From positions 1-64,000 of the forward strand of contig NZ_JBGCCU010000036.1 of the NCBI RefSeq assembly GCF_041261445.1: a DNA stretch of 64,000 bases, written 5' to 3'. A program made the translations under genes and the position numbers. How positions within the stretch are numbered: the first letter of the stretch is position 1; each line of letters opens with the position of its first letter. Source of the stretch: Catenulispora sp. EB89. Lineage in GTDB: Bacteria > Actinomycetota > Actinomycetes > Streptomycetales > Catenulisporaceae. The notes under the pieces are model-generated. The model saw only the letters and a program-made list of their open reading frames with translations, was not told the origin of the DNA and searched no databases. Positions 11,743 through 50,528 of this stretch are shown here, in pieces.

Positions 11743-12699
11743 ATGACGAATACGGACGCGAGCGCGGGTGCGGGTGCGGCTTCTGAGCCCGACCCCGGCC
11801 TCAGTGCGGCCGACACCGCCGACACCGCCGATGCCGCGGTCGCCGCGGCGGAGCGCTGGTTCGTCCGCAACGGCGTGCCGCACTTCGTCGAGGAGCACTA
11901 CTACGTCGCCGGCCTGCCCGCCTTCCTGCGGCCGTTCGCGGCGGCGATCCAGCTGGCGCGGCTGGCGATGATGCTTGGCTTCTGGACGGTGCGCCGGGTC
12001 TTCGCCGAGATCCGCGAGGTCGGCCACCTGGCCGTGCGCGCCCTGCCGCTGCTGGCGCTGTTCGGCATGGTCATCTTCTTCACCCGCGACTTCTGGCTCA
12101 TCTCGGCGGCGCTGACCTCCGGCTGGCTGTGGGTGTCCTCGGCGTTCTTCATCATGCTGATCCAGGCCTTCCTGATCGCGCGGCTCCCCGAGGAGTTCGT
12201 CACCCTGCCCAGCGCCTGCACCCCGGAGCGGATACGCGCCAGCTGCGTGGCCACGCCCCTGGCCCCGCTGGCCGACACCGAGCCGGAACTGGCCACGGAC
12301 CCGGCGCTGGGCCTGGGACAGCGCCGCAACATGTTCATGTACCTGCTCCTCACCCAGACCATCCAGATCAGCCTGCTGAGCTGGACGGTGTTCTTCTTCT
12401 ACGTGGTCTTCGGCGCCATCGCGATCCGCCCGGAGGTGCTCAAGGACTGGTTCGGCCACGTCCCACCGGATGCCCACCTGTGGGGCATCCGGATCCCGGG
12501 CGTCAGCAGTGAACTGCTGCACGTGGCGTTCCTGCTGGCCGGGCTGAGCGCGCTGTACTTCGCGATCACGGCGCTGACCGACGCGGTCTACCGGCGCGAG
12601 TTCTTCGACCGGACGCTGGCCGAGCTCGACAAGGCGATCCACATGCGGTGCGCGTATCTGACGGCGCGGAGCAAGTGCGGCAAGTCGCTGCCGCGCTGA
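11743..12699 (+). CDS. Integral membrane protein of unknown function
   Basis: I do not recognise a named family. The 318-residue protein has an acidic Ala/Asp-rich N-terminus, then hydrophobic segments near residues 65-85, 93-115, 120-150, 205-235 and 260-285, consistent with 5-6 membrane helices. A loop with the tryptic-looking CTPERIRASC lies between helix groups. The C-terminus is basic (TARSKCGKSLPR), which favours a cytoplasmic end. ATG 11743 follows the GNAT gene closely. It converges on the giant protein gene and ends just before a strong hairpin. Confidence 0.6.
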   Translation: MTNTDASAGAGAASEPDPGLSAADTADTADAAVAAAERWFVRNGVPHFVEEHYYVAGLPAFLRPFAAAIQLARLAMMLGFWTVRRVFAEIREVGHLAVRALPLLALFGMVIFFTRDFWLISAALTSGWLWVSSAFFIMLIQAFLIARLPEEFVTLPSACTPERIRASCVATPLAPLADTEPELATDPALGLGQRRNMFMYLLLTQTIQISLLSWTVFFFYVVFGAIAIRPEVLKDWFGHVPPDAHLWGIRIPGVSSELLHVAFLLAGLSALYFAITALTDAVYRREFFDRTLAELDKAIHMRCAYLTARSKCGKSLPR

Positions 12700-12741: not shown

Positions 12742-15700
12742 CTACGACGTCAGGTGCAGCGCGATGGCGGCCAGCCGGATGTTCCCGGCGATGCCGGGCG
12801 GCAGCACCAGGCGAAGCTGGGTGGCGGTGACCGGCTGGCCGGGGCGGGCCGGGTCGGTCACGAGGTGGCTGCGGGACGGCTGGTCGCTGACCAGCCTCGT
12901 GATGGGCTGCCAGGGTTCGGCCGGCGAGGTGCGGATGTCCAGGCGGGTGTCGCGCAGCCAGGATTCCGGGTGCGCCGGGTCGTCCCAGAGCGAGATCGCG
13001 TTGAACGGCACCGGGGCCGGGAAGGTGAAGAGCAGGCCGTAGGGCGGGGTGTTCGAGGCGCTGGCGGCGGTGTCCTCGATCATCATGTCGCGCAGGTAGG
13101 GCTGGGGCAGCGGGGTCGGCTGGTAGCCGGCCGGGACCGGGTTCGGCGCGGCCGGGGCGGGGATCGGGCCCATGCCGTCGATGGCGGGGACCAGGGCGAC
13201 CGCCGTGGTCGCGGGGTACTGGTTCGGGCCGGACAGCGGGGCGATGGCGTTGCCGGGGTCGGTCACCGCGGTGACCGGTGCCGTCGGGGCGGCCAGGAAC
13301 TGCTGGCGCATGTCGGGGGCGCTCGAGCGGACCGTGGTCGACCACGCGGCCTGATAGCCGGGGCCGGTCAGGCGCTCCAGGCGGCCGAGCCAGGTGCCGA
13401 CCAGCAGGTCGCCGCCGGGCAGCCAGCGCGGGACCGGGAGGCCGCCGAGGTCCGCGGTGAACACCGGGGTCAGGGTCGGGTCGAGCACGGTCAGGTTGCC
13501 CTGCTCGTCGCCGAAGGCGACCCGGCCGTCGGCGGCGACGTCGAGGTGGTGCACCACGTCCGGCGCCGGATAGCAGCGGTCCAGAGCCCAGCCGGTCGCC
13601 GGGTCGTGCCGGTAGCGGCACACGCGCGTGTCGTGGACCGTGATCAGGCCGCTGCCGTCGGGGAGCCAGGCGAGTTCGTCGGCGCGGGTGGTGAGCACGG
13701 CCTGGAGTCCGCGGCTGACGGTGTCGAGGATGAGCACACGGCCGTCGTCGTTGCTCATCGCGACCGCGACGCCGGTGCCGTCCGGGCTGACCGCGACGCC
13801 GGTGGCCTTGCCGTTGCCGGTGGTGAGCGCCGTGGACAGGTCGAGCTGGGCCAGCGGCGCGGCCGGGGCCGTGCTGCCCGGGGCGACGTTGTAGGCGCTG
13901 GCCACCAGACCGTCGACGACCAGCAGCGTCTTCGCGTCGAGCGCGGCCAGCACGGCGGTTCCGGCACGGCCCGGGTGTGCGGTGTGCAGATCCTGCGGCC
14001 ACCAGGCCTGGGACCAGCGCGGCGTGCCGTCGGCGCTCCAGACGGCCAGCCCGAGGTTTCCGGCGCTCGCGATCCAGGAGCCGTCCGGCGCGGTGGCGAA
14101 CGCCGGCGGGCGGCCGTCGGTCAGAACGGTGCCGGTGCGGTCGAACCAGCGCGGCGTGGTGCCGTAGAGGTCGAAGCGGCGCTGCACCGCCCCGCTGCCG
14201 GGATCCACCAGGTGCAGGCCGAACTCGGCCGGCGCGGTCAGATCGGCGCCGACGACGGCGATGCCCTGCGGGAGGGCGCGCGGCAGGAAGCTGAACTGGT
14301 GGCCGACGCGGGTCTGCCAGCGCTGGGCGCCGGTGGCCAGGTCGACGGCGAACAGGTTGCCGTCCCAGTTGGCCGCGCTGAGGACGGCTGACGCGCCGTC
14401 GGCGGTGAGGGCGATGCCGGAGATGTGTGCGCCGAGCCGCTGGGCCGCGGGTCGCCAGTCGGCGCCGGGGGTGAAGTCCGGTTCCAGGGCCGCGGTGCCG
14501 GCGACCGCCGTAGCCGTGGCCGCGGAAGCCCCGCCGCCGCCCGGCCCGCTCAGCAGATCCATCGGCGCACCGCCGGAGCCGACCGTGATCCCGCCGTCCG
14601 CGGTCCCGACCTGCCCGGTGATCAGCTCGACGGCCTCCACCGTGATCTTCCCCTGCGCGTTGACCGGCACCGTGAACACCCCGTTCGTCGGCGCCTGGAC
14701 GGTCCGCTCCCACAGCACGTCCTGACTCGCGTCGAGGACCCGCACCCGCACCGGCAGCGGTACCGTCCCCCCAGCGCCCGACCCAGCGCCCGACCCGCCG
14801 ACCACCGACACCGACCAGTCGATCTGCGCCGGGCCCGACCCGTCGGCGCTGAGCACCGGCCCGGCCGACACCGACACGCCGGTGATCGGGCTCGGCAGCA
14901 CCGCGAGGATCGCCGCCGGCCAGTGCCGCAGGTCGATCGGCACGGCGCCGTTCGTGTCGGGGAACAGCCGCGTGCCGCCGAACACGTCGTAGACGGCGGC
15001 GCCGGGGGCCAGGGCGGGCAGCGTCACCCGCGCCGGCAGCGGGGCGCGCACCGAGTGCCAGACGTCGGCCCGCCGGAAGATCGCGTTGTCCACCCCGAAC
15101 GTGCCGGCGTCCGTGCTGAAGATCGAGTTGTTGACCGCCAGCACCAGCCGGGCCGGGCCCGCCACGCGCTCGCTGATCAGCACCTGCGGGTCGGAGGCGG
15201 TCGCGTGCGCGGTGCCGATGACGTCCGCCAACCCCTCACGCAGAGCACTGACATTGGCCATCGCGATGGCGGTCCAGCTGATCGGCTGGTCCACCAGGAC
15301 GTCGTCCATGTTGAAGATCGCCGAGTCGTCGGTCAGCTGCCCGAAGACGTAGTCCACGGTCTTGGGCCACAAGGTATAGCTCTTGCCGAAGCTCAGCCCG
15401 AGCGAGGTGCTGCCCAGCCCCGCGACCACCGTGTCGAGGCAGCCGTCGCCCTCCTCCGGCAGGCCGGTGTCGCCGGGCGAGGTGCCGTCGTGGAACACCT
15501 TCACCCCGGCCTGCTGGGCCGCCGCGAGCGCGGCGCGGACCTTCGGGTCGAGCTCCACCCGCTCGTTGACCAGCAGCACGGCCGCGTAGTCGGTGAGCGG
15601 GCGGACCCCGGGCGTGTCCAGGTCCTCGACGAACACCAGGCTCGCCGGGATGTGGGCGTAGAGCAGCGAGAGGTAGGCCTCGAAGACCCGGCCGGTGTGC

Positions 15701-18700
15701 CCCGGCAGGCTGCTGTGCCAGCGCTGGATGGCGAACTGGCGCCGGCTCAGCAGGATCGCCACCGGATCGGCGGATCCGAACGTGCCGACCCACTCCCCGT
15801 ACTCGTGCAGCACGTCGCTGAGCACGCGGAACATGCCGGGCAGCCCGGTGCCGAGGTAGCGCGGGTCCGGGAGCTGGTCGTACTGGCGCGTCCAGGGGAT
15901 CATCTGGCTGTAGAGGCTGGCGTTCCCGGCGGCCGCGTGGCCGCTGCTGCCCGCTCCGCGCAGTAGCGCCTCGAAGGCCTGGCCCAGTACTTGGTCGCCG
16001 GTGCCGCTGTCGTTGTAGCTCTCCTCGTGCAGGACCAGCGCCTTGCCCGGGCGGCGGCAGAAGTCCGTCCAGAACGCGGACCCGAGCATCAGCGGGTACT
16101 GCTCCTGCTGGGACTGGAGGTCCACTTCGTCCGCCTCGGCGAAGGACTCCGGAGGGTAGAAGAACGCCTGGGTCGGCGGTCCCGAATGCGCGGCGACCAC
16201 GTCGGCCCGGCCGTAGCCGGTGTCGGCGGCGGCGAGCAGTTCGTTGCGCAGGGTGCGGGCGGCATCCGGCACGTGCTGCACGGCGTGCGCGAACCACATC
16301 GCCAGGATCTGCCGCCACTGGCCGTCGGCCCTGGTCTGGAGCAGCGCCGTGTTGTAGTCGGGGATCGCGGAGTCGAGCGAGGAGGGGTAGTGGCCGGGCG
16401 CCTCCAGCCCGGCGGGCCCCATCTCCCGGTTCCACCAGTTCGCGGCCCAGTGCCAGCCCTCGAAGGCCGGGTAGCCGGACAGGATCCGGTTGGTCCATGC
16501 CAGGTTCTGGAACCGGGTGCTCAACGGATCTCCGGGGCCGAGCATCGCCGCGGTGAGTTCCGGCAACGGCAGCGAGGTGTCGTTGCCCAGCAGCAGGCTC
16601 CGTATGCCGACGCCCTGCGCGCCGTATCCGCAGATGATGTCCAGCATCACCGGCAGCGCCCAGATCTTCGCCGGGTCCACGGCGTGGGGATCGGTGACGA
16701 GCCGGTTCGCCGTCGTGGCGACGGCCGTTCCCGACGGGTCCCGGTCGTAGCTGGAGTCGGTGGGGTCCAGCAGCGCCAGTCCGGCCTGCTGGTCGCTGAT
16801 CCGGTCGACGACCAGCGTCCAGCCGAGCCGCCGGGCCCGTTCCAGGTGCGCGGCCGCGGTGTCGGCGGCATCGAGGTAGTCCGCGCCGGCCGGGCCGACG
16901 AACACGCCGGCGTTGACGGGATAGGTGCCCTGCAGGTCGCCGAACCACACCCGCCGGAACCCGCTCGGCGGCCGCCCGGAGCCGAGCTCGATCGGCTGGG
17001 CGGCGACCGTGAGGTCGGCCGCGGTGGTGGTCAGCAGATAGCTGCCGGCCCGCAGCAGGGCGCTGACCGAGGCGGGCACGGTGATCGTGACCGAGCCCGT
17101 CGTGGGGATGGTCACGGTGCTCTGCGCCACGGTCACCGGGCTCGTCCCGGACACATCGTCCAGGCGCAGCACCAGATCGCGGGCCGTGCTCGGCGCCGGA
17201 CGGACGGAGACGGTGACGATGATCGGCTCCCCGACGGCGTACCGGAGCCGGTTGAAGGGGCGCGGATCAGGGCCGGGCGGAGTGCCGCCGAAAGCGCCGT
17301 GGTAGTACGTCTCGGTACTGATGCTGACCGAGCCGGCCACCCCCGGCGGACGGACTTCGATCACGCGGCGCAGCCGGAACTCGTCCACCAGGCCGGTGCG
17401 CCAGGGCCCGGTGTGCGGCGCGAGCGTCAGCTGCATCAGACCGCTGAGATCGGCGGGCACGGCGATCTGGAACGTCGTGGCATCGGTTTGGCTGACCGTC
17501 AGCTCGCGATGGTCCTGTGCGCCGATGGAGCGCACCCAGGCCTTCCAACTCGGCGCGGGCAATGTGAGGTCGACACCCGGTCCGAACCTGTCGACGGTCA
17601 GCGTGGCGGTCACGGTGTCGCCCGCGGTCCACGCCGAGCCGTTGTCCTGTTCCGCGCCGAAGTCGGCGCTGACCACGTCATGGTGGCAGAGCACCGACTG
17701 CACGAAAGCGATCGACCCGGAGGAGGCCGGGTCGGGCAGCGTGAACACGCCGTAGAGCTCACGGTCCTGGAAGCGTTGCAGCAGCGCCTGTCCGCCGAGG
17801 ATCCGCAGTTCCTTGTAGGGCGCGTCGGCGGCGGACGGAGCCCCGGACGGCAGTGGCAGCGCGGCCGCGGGAGCGGCGCCGTCGTCGGGGATGCGGTAGA
17901 CGGCGCCGCCGGTCGGCTTGAGCAGGTAGATGTGGCCGGTGTCGGCGACGTCGAAGCCGCCGGCCACCCCGCCGTTCCCGGGGACGGCCGTACTCTCGCC
18001 GATGGTCTGGCGCACGAGCGAGTTCAGCACCCCGCCGGTGCTCGCGTCGTCGGCCCGGTCCCAGAGCACGGTGCCGTCCGAGTCGACCTTCGCGAGGTGG
18101 TTGGCGAAGAGGTTGGGGCCCAGCACGACGTGGTAGAGCACGTAGAAGACCGGGGCCGGGGCGTCGGCGGTGCCCGTCTCGCGGACGCGGAAGTCCAGCA
18201 CGAGCGTGGTCCCGTCGTGCCCGAACGGCAGCGGGACCGCGGTCAGCCCGGTGAGCTGCTCGGCCGGCGGCGCGCCGATGACCTCGATCTGCGCGTGCGG
18301 CGTCACCGTGGAGCCGTCCGTGACCCCGTACTGCGCGAGCGCGTAGAACCGCCCGCTGACCGCGCCCGCCTCCACCCGGTAGGCCCCTCCGCCGCCGGCG
18401 AACTCGCCGGTCACTCGCGCGATCGGGTCCAGCGCGAGATCGGGCCCGTACATCCACACCTCGGTGGGCGAGCCGTAGTTGCCGAGAGCGACGTAGCCGC
18501 CGGCGTTCCCGGTGGCGTAGGTGAAGCCCTCGCTGCCGTCCTTGCTGCCGAGGATGACGTCGGTGAACAGCAGGTGCTGAAGCCCTTTGCGCTTGGTACC
18601 GTCCAGGTTCGTCCGCAGGAGGTACATCGTCGGGCCGCGCTCGGCGATCACCGTCGAGACCAGGTAGACGTCGCCGTCGCGGCCCACGCTCAGGTATGCG

Positions 18701-18759
18701 TACCGGCAGGCGAAGCCGGTCCCTTCCCGGCTGATCACTCGTTCCATGGTGTAGGTCAT
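12742..18759 (-). CDS. Giant multidomain beta-propeller / glycosidase-like protein
   Basis: A 2005-residue protein with no recognisable signal peptide. Residues 1-370 look like a beta-propeller (repeated short strands, e.g. HLLFTDVILGSKDGSEGF). Residues 380-620 look like one or two immunoglobulin-type sandwiches. Residues 640-1170 carry a catalytic-like region: RVWFGDLQGTYPVNAG, WHWAANWWNREMGP, then IPASLVFVEDLDT and LTDYAAVLLVNERVELD followed by a V/F-HDGTSPG turn, which resembles the trimerisation (class-I-glutaminase-like) domain after GH42-type barrels. Residues 1420-1800 form a second, PQQ-like propeller (SAANWDGNLFAVDLATGAQRW). The last 120 residues resemble an F5/8 discoidin sandwich. 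Function unknown; glycoside hydrolase or large surface-binding activity is inference. It converges on the membrane protein gene across a terminator hairpin. Confidence 0.7.
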   Translation of the reverse strand: MTYTMERVISREGTGFACRYAYLSVGRDGDVYLVSTVIAERGPTMYLLRTNLDGTKRKGLQHLLFTDVILGSKDGSEGFTYATGNAGGYVALGNYGSPTEVWMYGPDLALDPIARVTGEFAGGGGAYRVEAGAVSGRFYALAQYGVTDGSTVTPHAQIEVIGAPPAEQLTGLTAVPLPFGHDGTTLVLDFRVRETGTADAPAPVFYVLYHVVLGPNLFANHLAKVDSDGTVLWDRADDASTGGVLNSLVRQTIGESTAVPGNGGVAGGFDVADTGHIYLLKPTGGAVYRIPDDGAAPAAALPLPSGAPSAADAPYKELRILGGQALLQRFQDRELYGVFTLPDPASSGSIAFVQSVLCHHDVVSADFGAEQDNGSAWTAGDTVTATLTVDRFGPGVDLTLPAPSWKAWVRSIGAQDHRELTVSQTDATTFQIAVPADLSGLMQLTLAPHTGPWRTGLVDEFRLRRVIEVRPPGVAGSVSISTETYYHGAFGGTPPGPDPRPFNRLRYAVGEPIIVTVSVRPAPSTARDLVLRLDDVSGTSPVTVAQSTVTIPTTGSVTITVPASVSALLRAGSYLLTTTAADLTVAAQPIELGSGRPPSGFRRVWFGDLQGTYPVNAGVFVGPAGADYLDAADTAAAHLERARRLGWTLVVDRISDQQAGLALLDPTDSSYDRDPSGTAVATTANRLVTDPHAVDPAKIWALPVMLDIICGYGAQGVGIRSLLLGNDTSLPLPELTAAMLGPGDPLSTRFQNLAWTNRILSGYPAFEGWHWAANWWNREMGPAGLEAPGHYPSSLDSAIPDYNTALLQTRADGQWRQILAMWFAHAVQHVPDAARTLRNELLAAADTGYGRADVVAAHSGPPTQAFFYPPESFAEADEVDLQSQQEQYPLMLGSAFWTDFCRRPGKALVLHEESYNDSGTGDQVLGQAFEALLRGAGSSGHAAAGNASLYSQMIPWTRQYDQLPDPRYLGTGLPGMFRVLSDVLHEYGEWVGTFGSADPVAILLSRRQFAIQRWHSSLPGHTGRVFEAYLSLLYAHIPASLVFVEDLDTPGVRPLTDYAAVLLVNERVELDPKVRAALAAAQQAGVKVFHDGTSPGDTGLPEEGDGCLDTVVAGLGSTSLGLSFGKSYTLWPKTVDYVFGQLTDDSAIFNMDDVLVDQPISWTAIAMANVSALREGLADVIGTAHATASDPQVLISERVAGPARLVLAVNNSIFSTDAGTFGVDNAIFRRADVWHSVRAPLPARVTLPALAPGAAVYDVFGGTRLFPDTNGAVPIDLRHWPAAILAVLPSPITGVSVSAGPVLSADGSGPAQIDWSVSVVGGSGAGSGAGGTVPLPVRVRVLDASQDVLWERTVQAPTNGVFTVPVNAQGKITVEAVELITGQVGTADGGITVGSGGAPMDLLSGPGGGGASAATATAVAGTAALEPDFTPGADWRPAAQRLGAHISGIALTADGASAVLSAANWDGNLFAVDLATGAQRWQTRVGHQFSFLPRALPQGIAVVGADLTAPAEFGLHLVDPGSGAVQRRFDLYGTTPRWFDRTGTVLTDGRPPAFATAPDGSWIASAGNLGLAVWSADGTPRWSQAWWPQDLHTAHPGRAGTAVLAALDAKTLLVVDGLVASAYNVAPGSTAPAAPLAQLDLSTALTTGNGKATGVAVSPDGTGVAVAMSNDDGRVLILDTVSRGLQAVLTTRADELAWLPDGSGLITVHDTRVCRYRHDPATGWALDRCYPAPDVVHHLDVAADGRVAFGDEQGNLTVLDPTLTPVFTADLGGLPVPRWLPGGDLLVGTWLGRLERLTGPGYQAAWSTTVRSSAPDMRQQFLAAPTAPVTAVTDPGNAIAPLSGPNQYPATTAVALVPAIDGMGPIPAPAAPNPVPAGYQPTPLPQPYLRDMMIEDTAASASNTPPYGLLFTFPAPVPFNAISLWDDPAHPESWLRDTRLDIRTSPAEPWQPITRLVSDQPSRSHLVTDPARPGQPVTATQLRLVLPPGIAGNIRLAAIALHLTS

Positions 18760-18782
18760 CGTCCCCGTACCTCTCTGTGCGC

Positions 18783-18803
18783 GACCCGCTCCCGTCGCGG
18801 GTC
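18783..18803. promoter_or_regulatory. Inverted repeat in the leader of the giant gene
   Basis: GACCCGC and GCGGGTC are separated by 7 nt, a 7-bp perfect inverted repeat 24-44 nt upstream of the giant gene start. It could be an operator or a leader hairpin; nothing else supports either reading. Confidence 0.4.
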
Positions 18804-18874
18804 ACTTTCAGGCTAGGAAGCGGTACGGGGGTCGGAATCCGTAGGACTACGCGTTCCTGGCGGCTGCCTCTTGT

Positions 18875-18899
18875 CAGGCGCCTGTTTGTCAGGCGCCTG
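18875..18899. repeat. Two direct copies of palindrome CAGGCGCCTG
   Basis: The self-complementary 10-mer CAGGCGCCTG occurs at 18875 and 18890, both preceded by TTGT. The second copy overlaps the last codons of the SDR gene. Together they can fold into alternative hairpins and may act as the SDR terminator or a protein-binding site. Confidence 0.6.
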
Positions 18900-19710
18900 C
18901 GCCGCCGTCGACCGGGACGATCGCGCCGGTCACGAACGAGGCCCGGTCGCTGAGCAGCCACGCGGCCGCCTCGGCGATCTCGCGGGGCTCGGCCATGCGG
19001 CCCAGCGGCGTCGCCGCGGTGCTGCGCGCGATGATGCCGGGAGTCGCCGCCTCCCACTGCTGCATCATTTCCGTGGCGGTCCCGCCGGGGGTGATGCCGT
19101 TGACCCGGATGCCTTCCGGGGCCCAGGTCACCGCCGCGCTCTCGGTGAGGCTGTTGAGGGCGCGCTTCATCGCGGCGTAGGCCGGCAGCGCGGTGTTCGC
19201 GCGGCGGCTGCCGATGCTGGAGGTGTTGACGATCGCCCCGCCGCCGCTGCGGCGCATGAGCGCGGCCTCGGCGGTCATGGCGGTCCAGTGCGCCCTGAAG
19301 TTCACGGTGAACTGGTCGTCGATGTCCTCATCGGTGGTGGTATCCAGCGGGCCGGGCCGGTGTTGGACGATCGCGCCGTTGTTGAACGCGCCGTCAAGGC
19401 GTCCGTGCAGTTCCTCGACGCGGTCGACGGCGGCGCGGAGGCCGGCGCGGTCGGCGAGATCCAGGGTGACCGCGTCGGCGGTGCCGCCATCGCCGCGGAT
19501 CTCGGAGACGATGCGGTCCAGGGCACTGGTGCTGCGGGCAGCGAGCACGACGGCCGCGCCCTCGGCGGCGAACAGCCGGGCCGCGGCCGCGCCGATGCCG
19601 CGACTGGCGCCGGTGATGAACACGACTTTGTCGGTGAGCAGGCCGATCGGGCTGGCGTTCGTGCTGGTGGTGGCGCTGGTGGTTGCTGTCATGCCTCCAC
19701 GGTCGATCAT
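18889..19710 (-). CDS. Short-chain dehydrogenase/reductase
   Basis: NAD(P)-dependent SDR of 273 residues. Cofactor motif TGASRGIGAAAARLFA is followed by the NNGA-type turn (GAFNNGAIV), the active-site Ser in IVNTSS, and the catalytic YAAMK (Tyr and Lys). The C-terminus ends in VTGAIVPVDGGAGA, typical of classical SDRs. The conserved NAG has become NNG, which is tolerated in the family. Two starts are possible, 19710 and 19692; the second has GGAGG only 1 nt away, so I keep the first with reservation. Divergent to an XRE regulator that probably controls it. Substrate unknown. Confidence 0.88.
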   Translation of the reverse strand: MIDRGGMTATTSATTSTNASPIGLLTDKVVFITGASRGIGAAAARLFAAEGAAVVLAARSTSALDRIVSEIRGDGGTADAVTLDLADRAGLRAAVDRVEELHGRLDGAFNNGAIVQHRPGPLDTTTDEDIDDQFTVNFRAHWTAMTAEAALMRRSGGGAIVNTSSIGSRRANTALPAYAAMKRALNSLTESAAVTWAPEGIRVNGITPGGTATEMMQQWEAATPGIIARSTAATPLGRMAEPREIAEAAAWLLSDRASFVTGAIVPVDGGAGA

Positions 19711-49661: not shown

Positions 49662-50528
49662 CTACTTCAGCAGCCGCGAAAGCCGCCGGTCGGCCAGCGG
49701 CTTGCCACCGGTCTGGCACGTCGGGCAGTACTGCAGGCTCGAGTCGGCGAAGGAGACCTCGCGGATCGTGTCGCCGCAGACCGGGCATTTCTCGCCGGTG
49801 CGGCCGTGGACGCGCAGGCCCGACTTCTTCTCCGCCTTCAGGTCCTTCATCGGGAGGCCGCGGGAGCGTTCGACGGCGTCGTTGAGGGTGCTGAGGGTGA
49901 CCTCGTAGAGGTTGGCCACCTCTTCGGGCGTCAGCTTGGCTGCCAGTTTGTAGGGGGACATGCGCGCCGCGTGCAGGATCTCGTCGGAGTAGGCGTTGCC
50001 GATGCCGGCCAGGACGCTCTGGTCGCGCAGGACGCCCTTGATCTGGCGGCGCTCGCCGTCCAGGAGGCCGCGGAGTACGTCGACGGTGAATTCCTCCGAG
50101 AGGGGGTCGATGCCCAGGCGCGCGATGCCCGGGACGTCGTTGGGGTCGCGGACGACGTAGACCGCCAGCCCCTTCTTCGTGCCGTACTCGGTCACGTCGA
50201 TGCCGCTGCCGGCCGGCTCCTCCATGCGTACGCGCAGCGCCAGTGGCCCCTTGCCGGGCTTCGGGGGCGTCGTCGGCAGCTCCTCCTGCCAGCGGACCCA
50301 GCCGGCGCGCGCCAGGTGCAGGACCAGGTGCAGGTCGCCGGCGCTGATGTCGAGGAACTTCCCGTGGCGTCCCACTCCGCTGACGACCTGGCCCTCCAGG
50401 GCCGACAGCGGCGGGTCGTATGTCTTGAGCGCGTGGATGGCGACCGGTGTGGCCGCCGCGACGGTGTGTCCGGCGAGGTGCTCGTCCAGGAACGCGGCCA
50501 GCGCCTGGACCTCCGGCAGTTCGGGCAT
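49662..50528 (-). CDS. Fpg/Nei family DNA glycosylase/AP lyase
   Basis: Base-excision repair enzyme of 288 residues. It starts MPELPEVQAL, where Pro2 and Glu3 are the catalytic residues, contains the helix-two-turn-helix segment IKGVLRDQSVLAGIGNAYSDEIL, and ends with the zinc finger CPVCGDTIREVSFADSS and CPTCQTGG. The upstream frame is open, but ATG 50528 is required because family activity depends on the processed N-terminus. A second ortholog-type copy (MutM versus Nei) cannot be resolved here. Confidence 0.93.
   Translation of the reverse strand: MPELPEVQALAAFLDEHLAGHTVAAATPVAIHALKTYDPPLSALEGQVVSGVGRHGKFLDISAGDLHLVLHLARAGWVRWQEELPTTPPKPGKGPLALRVRMEEPAGSGIDVTEYGTKKGLAVYVVRDPNDVPGIARLGIDPLSEEFTVDVLRGLLDGERRQIKGVLRDQSVLAGIGNAYSDEILHAARMSPYKLAAKLTPEEVANLYEVTLSTLNDAVERSRGLPMKDLKAEKKSGLRVHGRTGEKCPVCGDTIREVSFADSSLQYCPTCQTGGKPLADRRLSRLLK

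Follow-up and report, generated by a model that had tools for sequence, protein, structure and literature searches.

We analysed the first 64,000 nucleotides of contig NZ_JBGCCU010000036.1 of Catenulispora sp. EB89 (the window), which carries on its minus strand a gene for a 2005-residue protein, P0001, flanked by a short-chain dehydrogenase gene and by a convergent gene whose product reads as membrane-bound (Table 1). A sequence-only reading had pictured P0001 as a cytosolic-looking chain made of an N-terminal beta-propeller, Ig-like sandwiches, a GH42-like core with a trimerisation-type domain, a PQQ-like propeller and a discoidin-like tail. We found an intact gene for a leaderless protein that has WD40-type blades near its C-terminus and a core with no family match, and whose one relative among the genomes searched is a broken copy in Catenulispora rubra. 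These observations are tentatively read as those of a lineage-restricted, probably cytosolic binding platform.

Coding status and predicted location of the protein

One open frame, of 2005 codons, spans exactly the positions 12742-18759 given in the earlier reading; it lies on the minus strand. The sequence is 72% G+C and is overlapped by several long frames on the opposite strand and in other phases; the possibility of a chance antisense frame was ruled out by the codon-position composition, with G+C fractions of 0.70, 0.54 and 0.95 at the first, second and third positions, respectively. Because the third-position value was high in every one of ten 200-codon blocks (0.91-0.975 over codons 1-2000), the region is a single coding frame throughout. 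The gene is real and is present in a single copy in the genome (11.9 Mb in 70 contigs), and its product is very rare, an extreme orphan among the genomes searched.

No signal peptide or membrane span was visible by Kyte-Doolittle hydropathy over 19-residue stretches, the highest mean being 0.81 in the first 60 residues and 1.73 across the whole chain. The frame extends upstream of its ATG by only 14 codons (giving an open frame of 2019 amino acids), and none of these is ATG, GTG or TTG. Hydropathy and the lack of a usable upstream start thus bear out the earlier statement that a signal peptide is absent, and the picture of a single very long multidomain chain, leaderless and with propeller blades towards the C-terminus, also stood. 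For a leaderless chain with no membrane span, a cytosolic location is therefore the natural inference. Many GH42 enzymes are cytosolic, so the missing leader, which had been regarded as an oddity, would by itself be unremarkable in an enzyme of the GH42 type.

WD40-type blades near the C-terminus

The whole chain gave a single weak Pfam match, to an EML propeller (expectation value, E, of 0.018), and nothing up to E 1 in NCBIfam or among PDB sequences. Pfam was also run on nine separate segments up to E 10, a range in which the HMMER filters remove most matches above ∼0.1. Residues 1430-1860 matched five families (PQQ_2, E 2.7e-4; EML_2, 1.5e-3; WD40, 2.3e-3; THOC3, 0.047; PD40, 0.24), residues 1290-1470 weakly matched two (best E 0.028), and the other seven segments matched none. 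The WD40 profile scored 18.9 bits (curated cut-off of 27), compared to 21.1 bits for PQQ_2 (cut-off 27.6) and 14.7 bits for TIGR03300 (cut-off 285.2). A PDB sequence search with residues 1430-1860 returned 11 weak matches, the best two of which were WD40 proteins at non-significant E values of 0.16-0.17 (SWD3, 0.16). When the segment was compared with itself without gaps, two diagonals (47 and 43) exceeded the largest of 50 shuffles (38).

An AlphaFold2 model of residues 1430-1860, predicted without relatives, placed 76 of 431 residues at a predicted local distance difference test (pLDDT) value of 70 or more and displayed strands that repeat along the model. The pLDDT was 79-84 over model residues 271-340 (protein residues 1700-1769), and the first half of the segment lay mostly below 50. 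Foldseek searches with this model yielded 1531 PDB matches at E ≤0.001; many of the 50 listed from the top either carry WD40 in their titles or are complexes that contain WD40 proteins. In the VIA-align comparison, the 50 matches listed had Z scores of 16.5-19.3, and the tight ones superposed 147-177 residues at 2.4-2.9 Å (e.g., 177 residues at 2.5 Å). At least one fifth of those listed covered model residues 176-404, corresponding to protein residues 1605-1833, of which 1605-1652 are of very low confidence. As modelled, residues ∼1653-1799 are four-stranded WD40-type blades, an assignment that applies to these residues only.

The blades share strand pattern and local fold with WD40 propellers (PF00400; a prokaryotic example in the PDB is Thermomonospora 5yzv), but they are fused within a 2005-residue chain, the rest of which has no significant matches, and their profile falls below the cut-off. 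Likeness to the PQQ_2 and BamB-like propellers (PF13360 and TIGR03300) lies in the PQQ_2 match, which gave the best Pfam E of the segment and covered two stretches; in contrast, the structural matches listed are mostly WD40 proteins. The PQQ-like propeller proposed earlier was confirmed in part, as blades near the C-terminus whose structure is closer to WD40 than to PQQ.

The central core and the remaining segments

Residues 600-1340, the proposed glycosidase-like core, matched no Pfam model up to E 10 (with the filter losses described above), no NCBIfam model up to E 1 and no PDB sequence up to E 10. The GH42 trimerisation profile PF08532 matches nine of ten Catenulispora genomes and has four above-cut-off places in the window genome, all of them off the window's contig, but it was silent on the 2005-codon gene. 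Comparison by hhalign of the single core sequence with nine Catenulispora GH42 proteins (from nine of the 15 GH42 loci retrieved) gave a probability of 0.15% (E 0.4), which is below both negative controls (0.44% for the protein's own residues 1-345 and 1.4% for a nonribosomal peptide synthetase (NRPS)-like frame of the window), whereas one GH35 protein from the window genome (446 residues), used as the positive control, reached 36% (E 3.7e-4). GH35 belongs to the same clan as GH42; judging by this one control, the comparison seems able to pick up kinship at the clan level, although nothing beyond that follows from it. The AlphaFold model of the core, made without an alignment, had a pLDDT of 32.7 and was worthless, with no fold readable from it, and it therefore speaks neither for nor against a TIM barrel.

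That the protein is a clan-A glycosidase, of the GH42 kind or another (with a TIM barrel, a GATase-like domain and sandwiches), which carries additional binding domains and acts on galactosides or arabinosides, is conceivable but unlikely. By eye, the stretch GYPAFEGWHWAANWW is positioned like strand 4 of clan A, the stretch ALVLHEESYND is positioned like the nucleophile strand, and helix-like and strand-like text alternates along the core. The candidate catalytic residues, also picked by eye, are Glu 912 and Glu 913 of ALVLHEESYND. The acid/base motif of clan A requires Glu after Asn; Trp, not Glu, follows the Asn of the strand-4-like stretch, which is left without an Asn-Glu pair. The likeness of the core to the GH42 beta-galactosidases (PF08532) is one seen by eye with nothing measured, and the core differs from these enzymes in having neither a profile nor a profile-profile match. 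None of the sequence tests made placed the core in GH42, and neither the GH42-like core nor the trimerisation-type domain of the sequence-only reading gained support.

The other segments were equally poor in matches. Residues 1-345, read earlier as an N-terminal propeller, gave no match in the Pfam (up to E 10), NCBIfam or PDB-sequence searches, and their internal repeats did not rise above shuffles (best diagonal of 20 versus a shuffle mean of 22.9). For residues 346-610, called Ig-like sandwiches, there was no significant match in the libraries searched, the best being the adhesin repeat NF033510 at a sub-threshold E of 0.02; a PHROG match of residues 1-610 (E 0.22) was taken as chance. Residues 1860-2005, called a discoidin-like tail, matched neither discoidin/F5_F8 type C nor any other Pfam family up to E 10, and four PDB sequence matches of this tail (best E 1.2) were also taken as chance. 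These three domain names were not confirmed. PADLOC gave no match for the 2005-residue protein, and nothing in the evidence favours its identity as a phage or defence protein. In the literature library, the string GTAGTCCTACG turned up in one paper, a rust-fungus study that sheds no light on this gene.

Distribution of relatives

Searches with the whole protein matched two of ten genomes of the genus and two of 14 genomes of the family, in both cases the window genome and C. rubra. With the core as query, the same two genomes were matched among 99 of the order; with the core or part of it, two were matched among 198 of the phylum, namely the window genome and one chance match; residues 600-1010 matched only the window genome among 394 of the class. 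These genome samples overlap, and in many genomes the order, phylum and class searches scored only part of the first-look candidates (for the window genome 11 of 14, 5 of 14 and 4 of 19, respectively). The chance match among the phylum genomes (G163; E 9e-4, 30%) was rejected: it falls within the membrane portion of a frame of 657 residues, at the end of which a LuxR-type helix-turn-helix is recognisable by eye. Viral contigs, plasmids and phages contained no relative. Six exact 8-residue peptides were scanned against 84,980 species, a method that detects close relatives only; ten stretches matched a peptide, and one of these, from C. rubra, was a relative. Bacterial phyla other than that of the window species were covered by this insensitive scan and by the plasmid, phage and viral collections only, and the searches made leave room for a distant family, most of all outside this phylum.

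The broken copy in Catenulispora rubra

In C. rubra DSM 44948 (NZ_JAACYW010000016.1, locus L005), a remnant of the gene lies between the same neighbours as the window gene. Its three pieces match residues 1-266, 533-693 and 1918-2005 at 87, 89 and 94% identity, respectively. Comparison of the junctions with the window revealed two deletions, one of ∼0.81 kb that is out of frame and one of ∼3.68 kb that is in frame, and the first piece is frameshifted, with a stop after 272 codons; about one quarter of the codons are left. The C. rubra homologue thus shares site, neighbours and 87-94% of its residues with the window gene, and differs from it by the two deletions and the frameshift.

The pooled ratio of nonsynonymous to synonymous substitution rates (dN/dS) between the window gene and the C. 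rubra copy was 0.61 (506 codons), compared to 0.30 for the dehydrogenase gene and 0.07 for the membrane-protein gene. The individual pieces gave 0.68, 0.70 and 0.26, the lowest value belonging to the last 87 codons. From these counts we dropped as unreliable 84 columns at the start of the dehydrogenase alignment and 45 at the start of the membrane-protein alignment; the last column of the second piece was also left out. The deletions, the frameshift and the ratio of 0.61 fit a C. rubra copy that has been released from selection.

An imperfect inverted repeat (9 of 11 pairs) lies ∼75 bases 5' of the gene and is identical in C. rubra. Its core, GTAGTCCTAC, has one exact match in the window and five matches with at most one mismatch, compared to 0.75 expected. 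The repeat is possibly an operator or promoter element. Scanning for promoters yielded a single terminator-like site and none of the sigma-70 type, an outcome to be expected by chance.

We also considered that the gene is an ordinary acquired gene that is decaying or useless, i.e., a foreign multidomain gene retained by chance and functionless in both species, and we regard this as quite improbable. Such a history would agree with the restriction of the gene to two species of the genus, its breakage in one of them, the relaxed dN/dS and the rearranged junction described below; however, 2005 codons have stayed free of stops in the window species at ∼95% third-position G+C, and the upstream inverted repeat is unchanged between the two species.

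Neighbouring genes and the junction

No Pfam family matched the convergent membrane-protein gene at E 1e-4 or better. It was matched in all 14 genomes of the family, with at least 71% identity in nine (its own included), and in eight of the nine other genomes of the genus it occurs at 71-93% identity. On the other side, the gene order is short-chain dehydrogenase, divergent MmyB-like regulator and DUF1330 gene, as it is in C. rubra. The dehydrogenase-regulator stretch was found at 78-89% DNA identity in genus genomes G001, G002, G003, G006 and G008. Downstream of it, as judged by eye at three of four loci (L062, L063 and L064), G001 has a reductase-like gene, G003 one that is lipoprotein-like, and G006 a second dehydrogenase with a transposase-like gene. 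The surroundings of the membrane-protein gene, compared by eye at three of seven loci (L025, L026 and L028), contain an Fpg/Nei-like gene next to it in G001 and G002, and one gene followed by the Fpg/Nei-like gene in G008; in the window, the Fpg/Nei-like gene begins at 49662. In C. rubra as in the window species, the orphan gene thus stands at the meeting point of two gene blocks that lie apart, each beside different genes, in the remaining Catenulispora genomes examined.

Positions 21089-49506 hold an apparent nonribosomal peptide cluster that is extra relative to G001, G002 and G008. Its Pfam matches are PGM1-like ATP-grasp, CysN-like, PAPS-reductase-like, BtrH_N and acyl-CoA dehydrogenase, and by eye its frames also include CysC-, MFS- and NRPS-like ones. 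A role of the orphan as a tailoring or accessory protein of this cluster (∼21-49 kb) is very unlikely: the gene does sit inside the extra segment between the membrane-protein and Fpg/Nei-like genes, together with the PGM1-like ATP-grasp, sulfate-activation and BtrH_N genes and the NRPS-like frames (by eye), but in C. rubra the remnant, the dehydrogenase, the regulator and the DUF1330 gene stand together, and the 7.7 kb beyond the DUF1330 gene contain no ATP-grasp, sulfate-activation or NRPS genes (by eye, for that stretch only, the rest of the genome not having been searched).

Table 1. Positions of the orphan gene, its segments and its immediate neighbours in the window.
Feature	Coordinates	Strand	Basis or remark
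Entire gene of the orphan protein P0001 (2005 residues)	12742..18759	minus	Open reading frame and composition; ATG at 18759, stop 12744-12742
Residues 1-345, called an N-terminal propeller in the sequence-only reading	17725..18759	minus	No match
Residues 346-610, called Ig-like sandwiches	16930..17724	minus	Sub-threshold matches only
Residues 600-1340, proposed glycosidase-like core	14740..16962	minus	No family or structure match
Residues 1430-1860, segment with propeller blades	13180..14472	minus	Profiles below cut-off
Residues ∼1653-1799, WD40-type blades	13363..13803	minus	Model of fair confidence, structure comparison
Residues 1860-2005, called a discoidin-like tail	12745..13182	minus	No match
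Upstream region with imperfect inverted repeat GGAACGCGTAGTCCTACGGATTCC	18760..18888	minus	Repeat at 18834-18857
Short-chain dehydrogenase gene, directly upstream	18889..19710	minus	Also adjoins the broken C. rubra copy
Convergent gene, protein reads as membrane-bound	11743..12699	plus	Adjoins the broken C. rubra copy

Discussion

The explanation that we tentatively favour is a leaderless, lineage-restricted protein, probably a cytosolic binding platform, that was gained in a common ancestor and is decaying in C. rubra. The single intact gene would make a 2005-residue multidomain protein, most likely a large binding platform of the cytosol, on which the WD40-type blades, and perhaps other beta-rich parts, would hold partners (proteins or ligands) around a middle region of ∼740 residues. 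This region may be a strongly diverged barrel enzyme that acts on sugars, a guess that no measurement requires. The gene was probably gained in an ancestor that the window species shares with C. rubra, at the junction of the two conserved blocks; it would be dispensable, and its decay, presumably later than the gain, would already be under way in C. rubra.

Several points weigh against this explanation. For the propeller, all five Pfam matches of residues 1430-1860 lie under the curated cut-offs, the model is poor overall (mean pLDDT of 45.2 and predicted TM-score of 0.41), and many of the VIA-align matches have root-mean-square deviations of 5-15 Å. The Foldseek TM-scores are low because the model is good only locally, and the two diagonals of the self-comparison are offset by 206 and 32 residues, values that define no clean blade length. 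A fold shared with WD40 proteins by itself demonstrates no function; nothing ties the protein to one, and the only relative found is broken. For the history of the gene, the C. rubra deletions are known from one draft contig, and the synonymous rate (dS) of the orphan gene against C. rubra, 0.094, is below those of its neighbours (0.159 and 0.189), a difference that is not explained by a simple shared-ancestor history. The three C. rubra pieces, moreover, cannot tell the selection status of the gene in the window species.

A more ambitious interpretation takes the protein as the founder of a new family, a leaderless multidomain enzyme whose 740-residue core would be a barrel of a kind not described so far, a hydrolase or lyase with a sugar conjugate as its substrate, presented on the WD40-type propeller; this we consider distinctly doubtful. 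With the binding platform as the favoured explanation, our analysis corrects an enzyme assignment that was plausible yet unsupported, and describes a 2005-residue gene that, among the genomes searched, is found in one species only, with a broken copy in a close relative. Should the core turn out to be an enzyme, a new family would begin with it; otherwise the gene would illustrate clearly how, in a genus of large genomes, a very large gene can be apparently short-lived.

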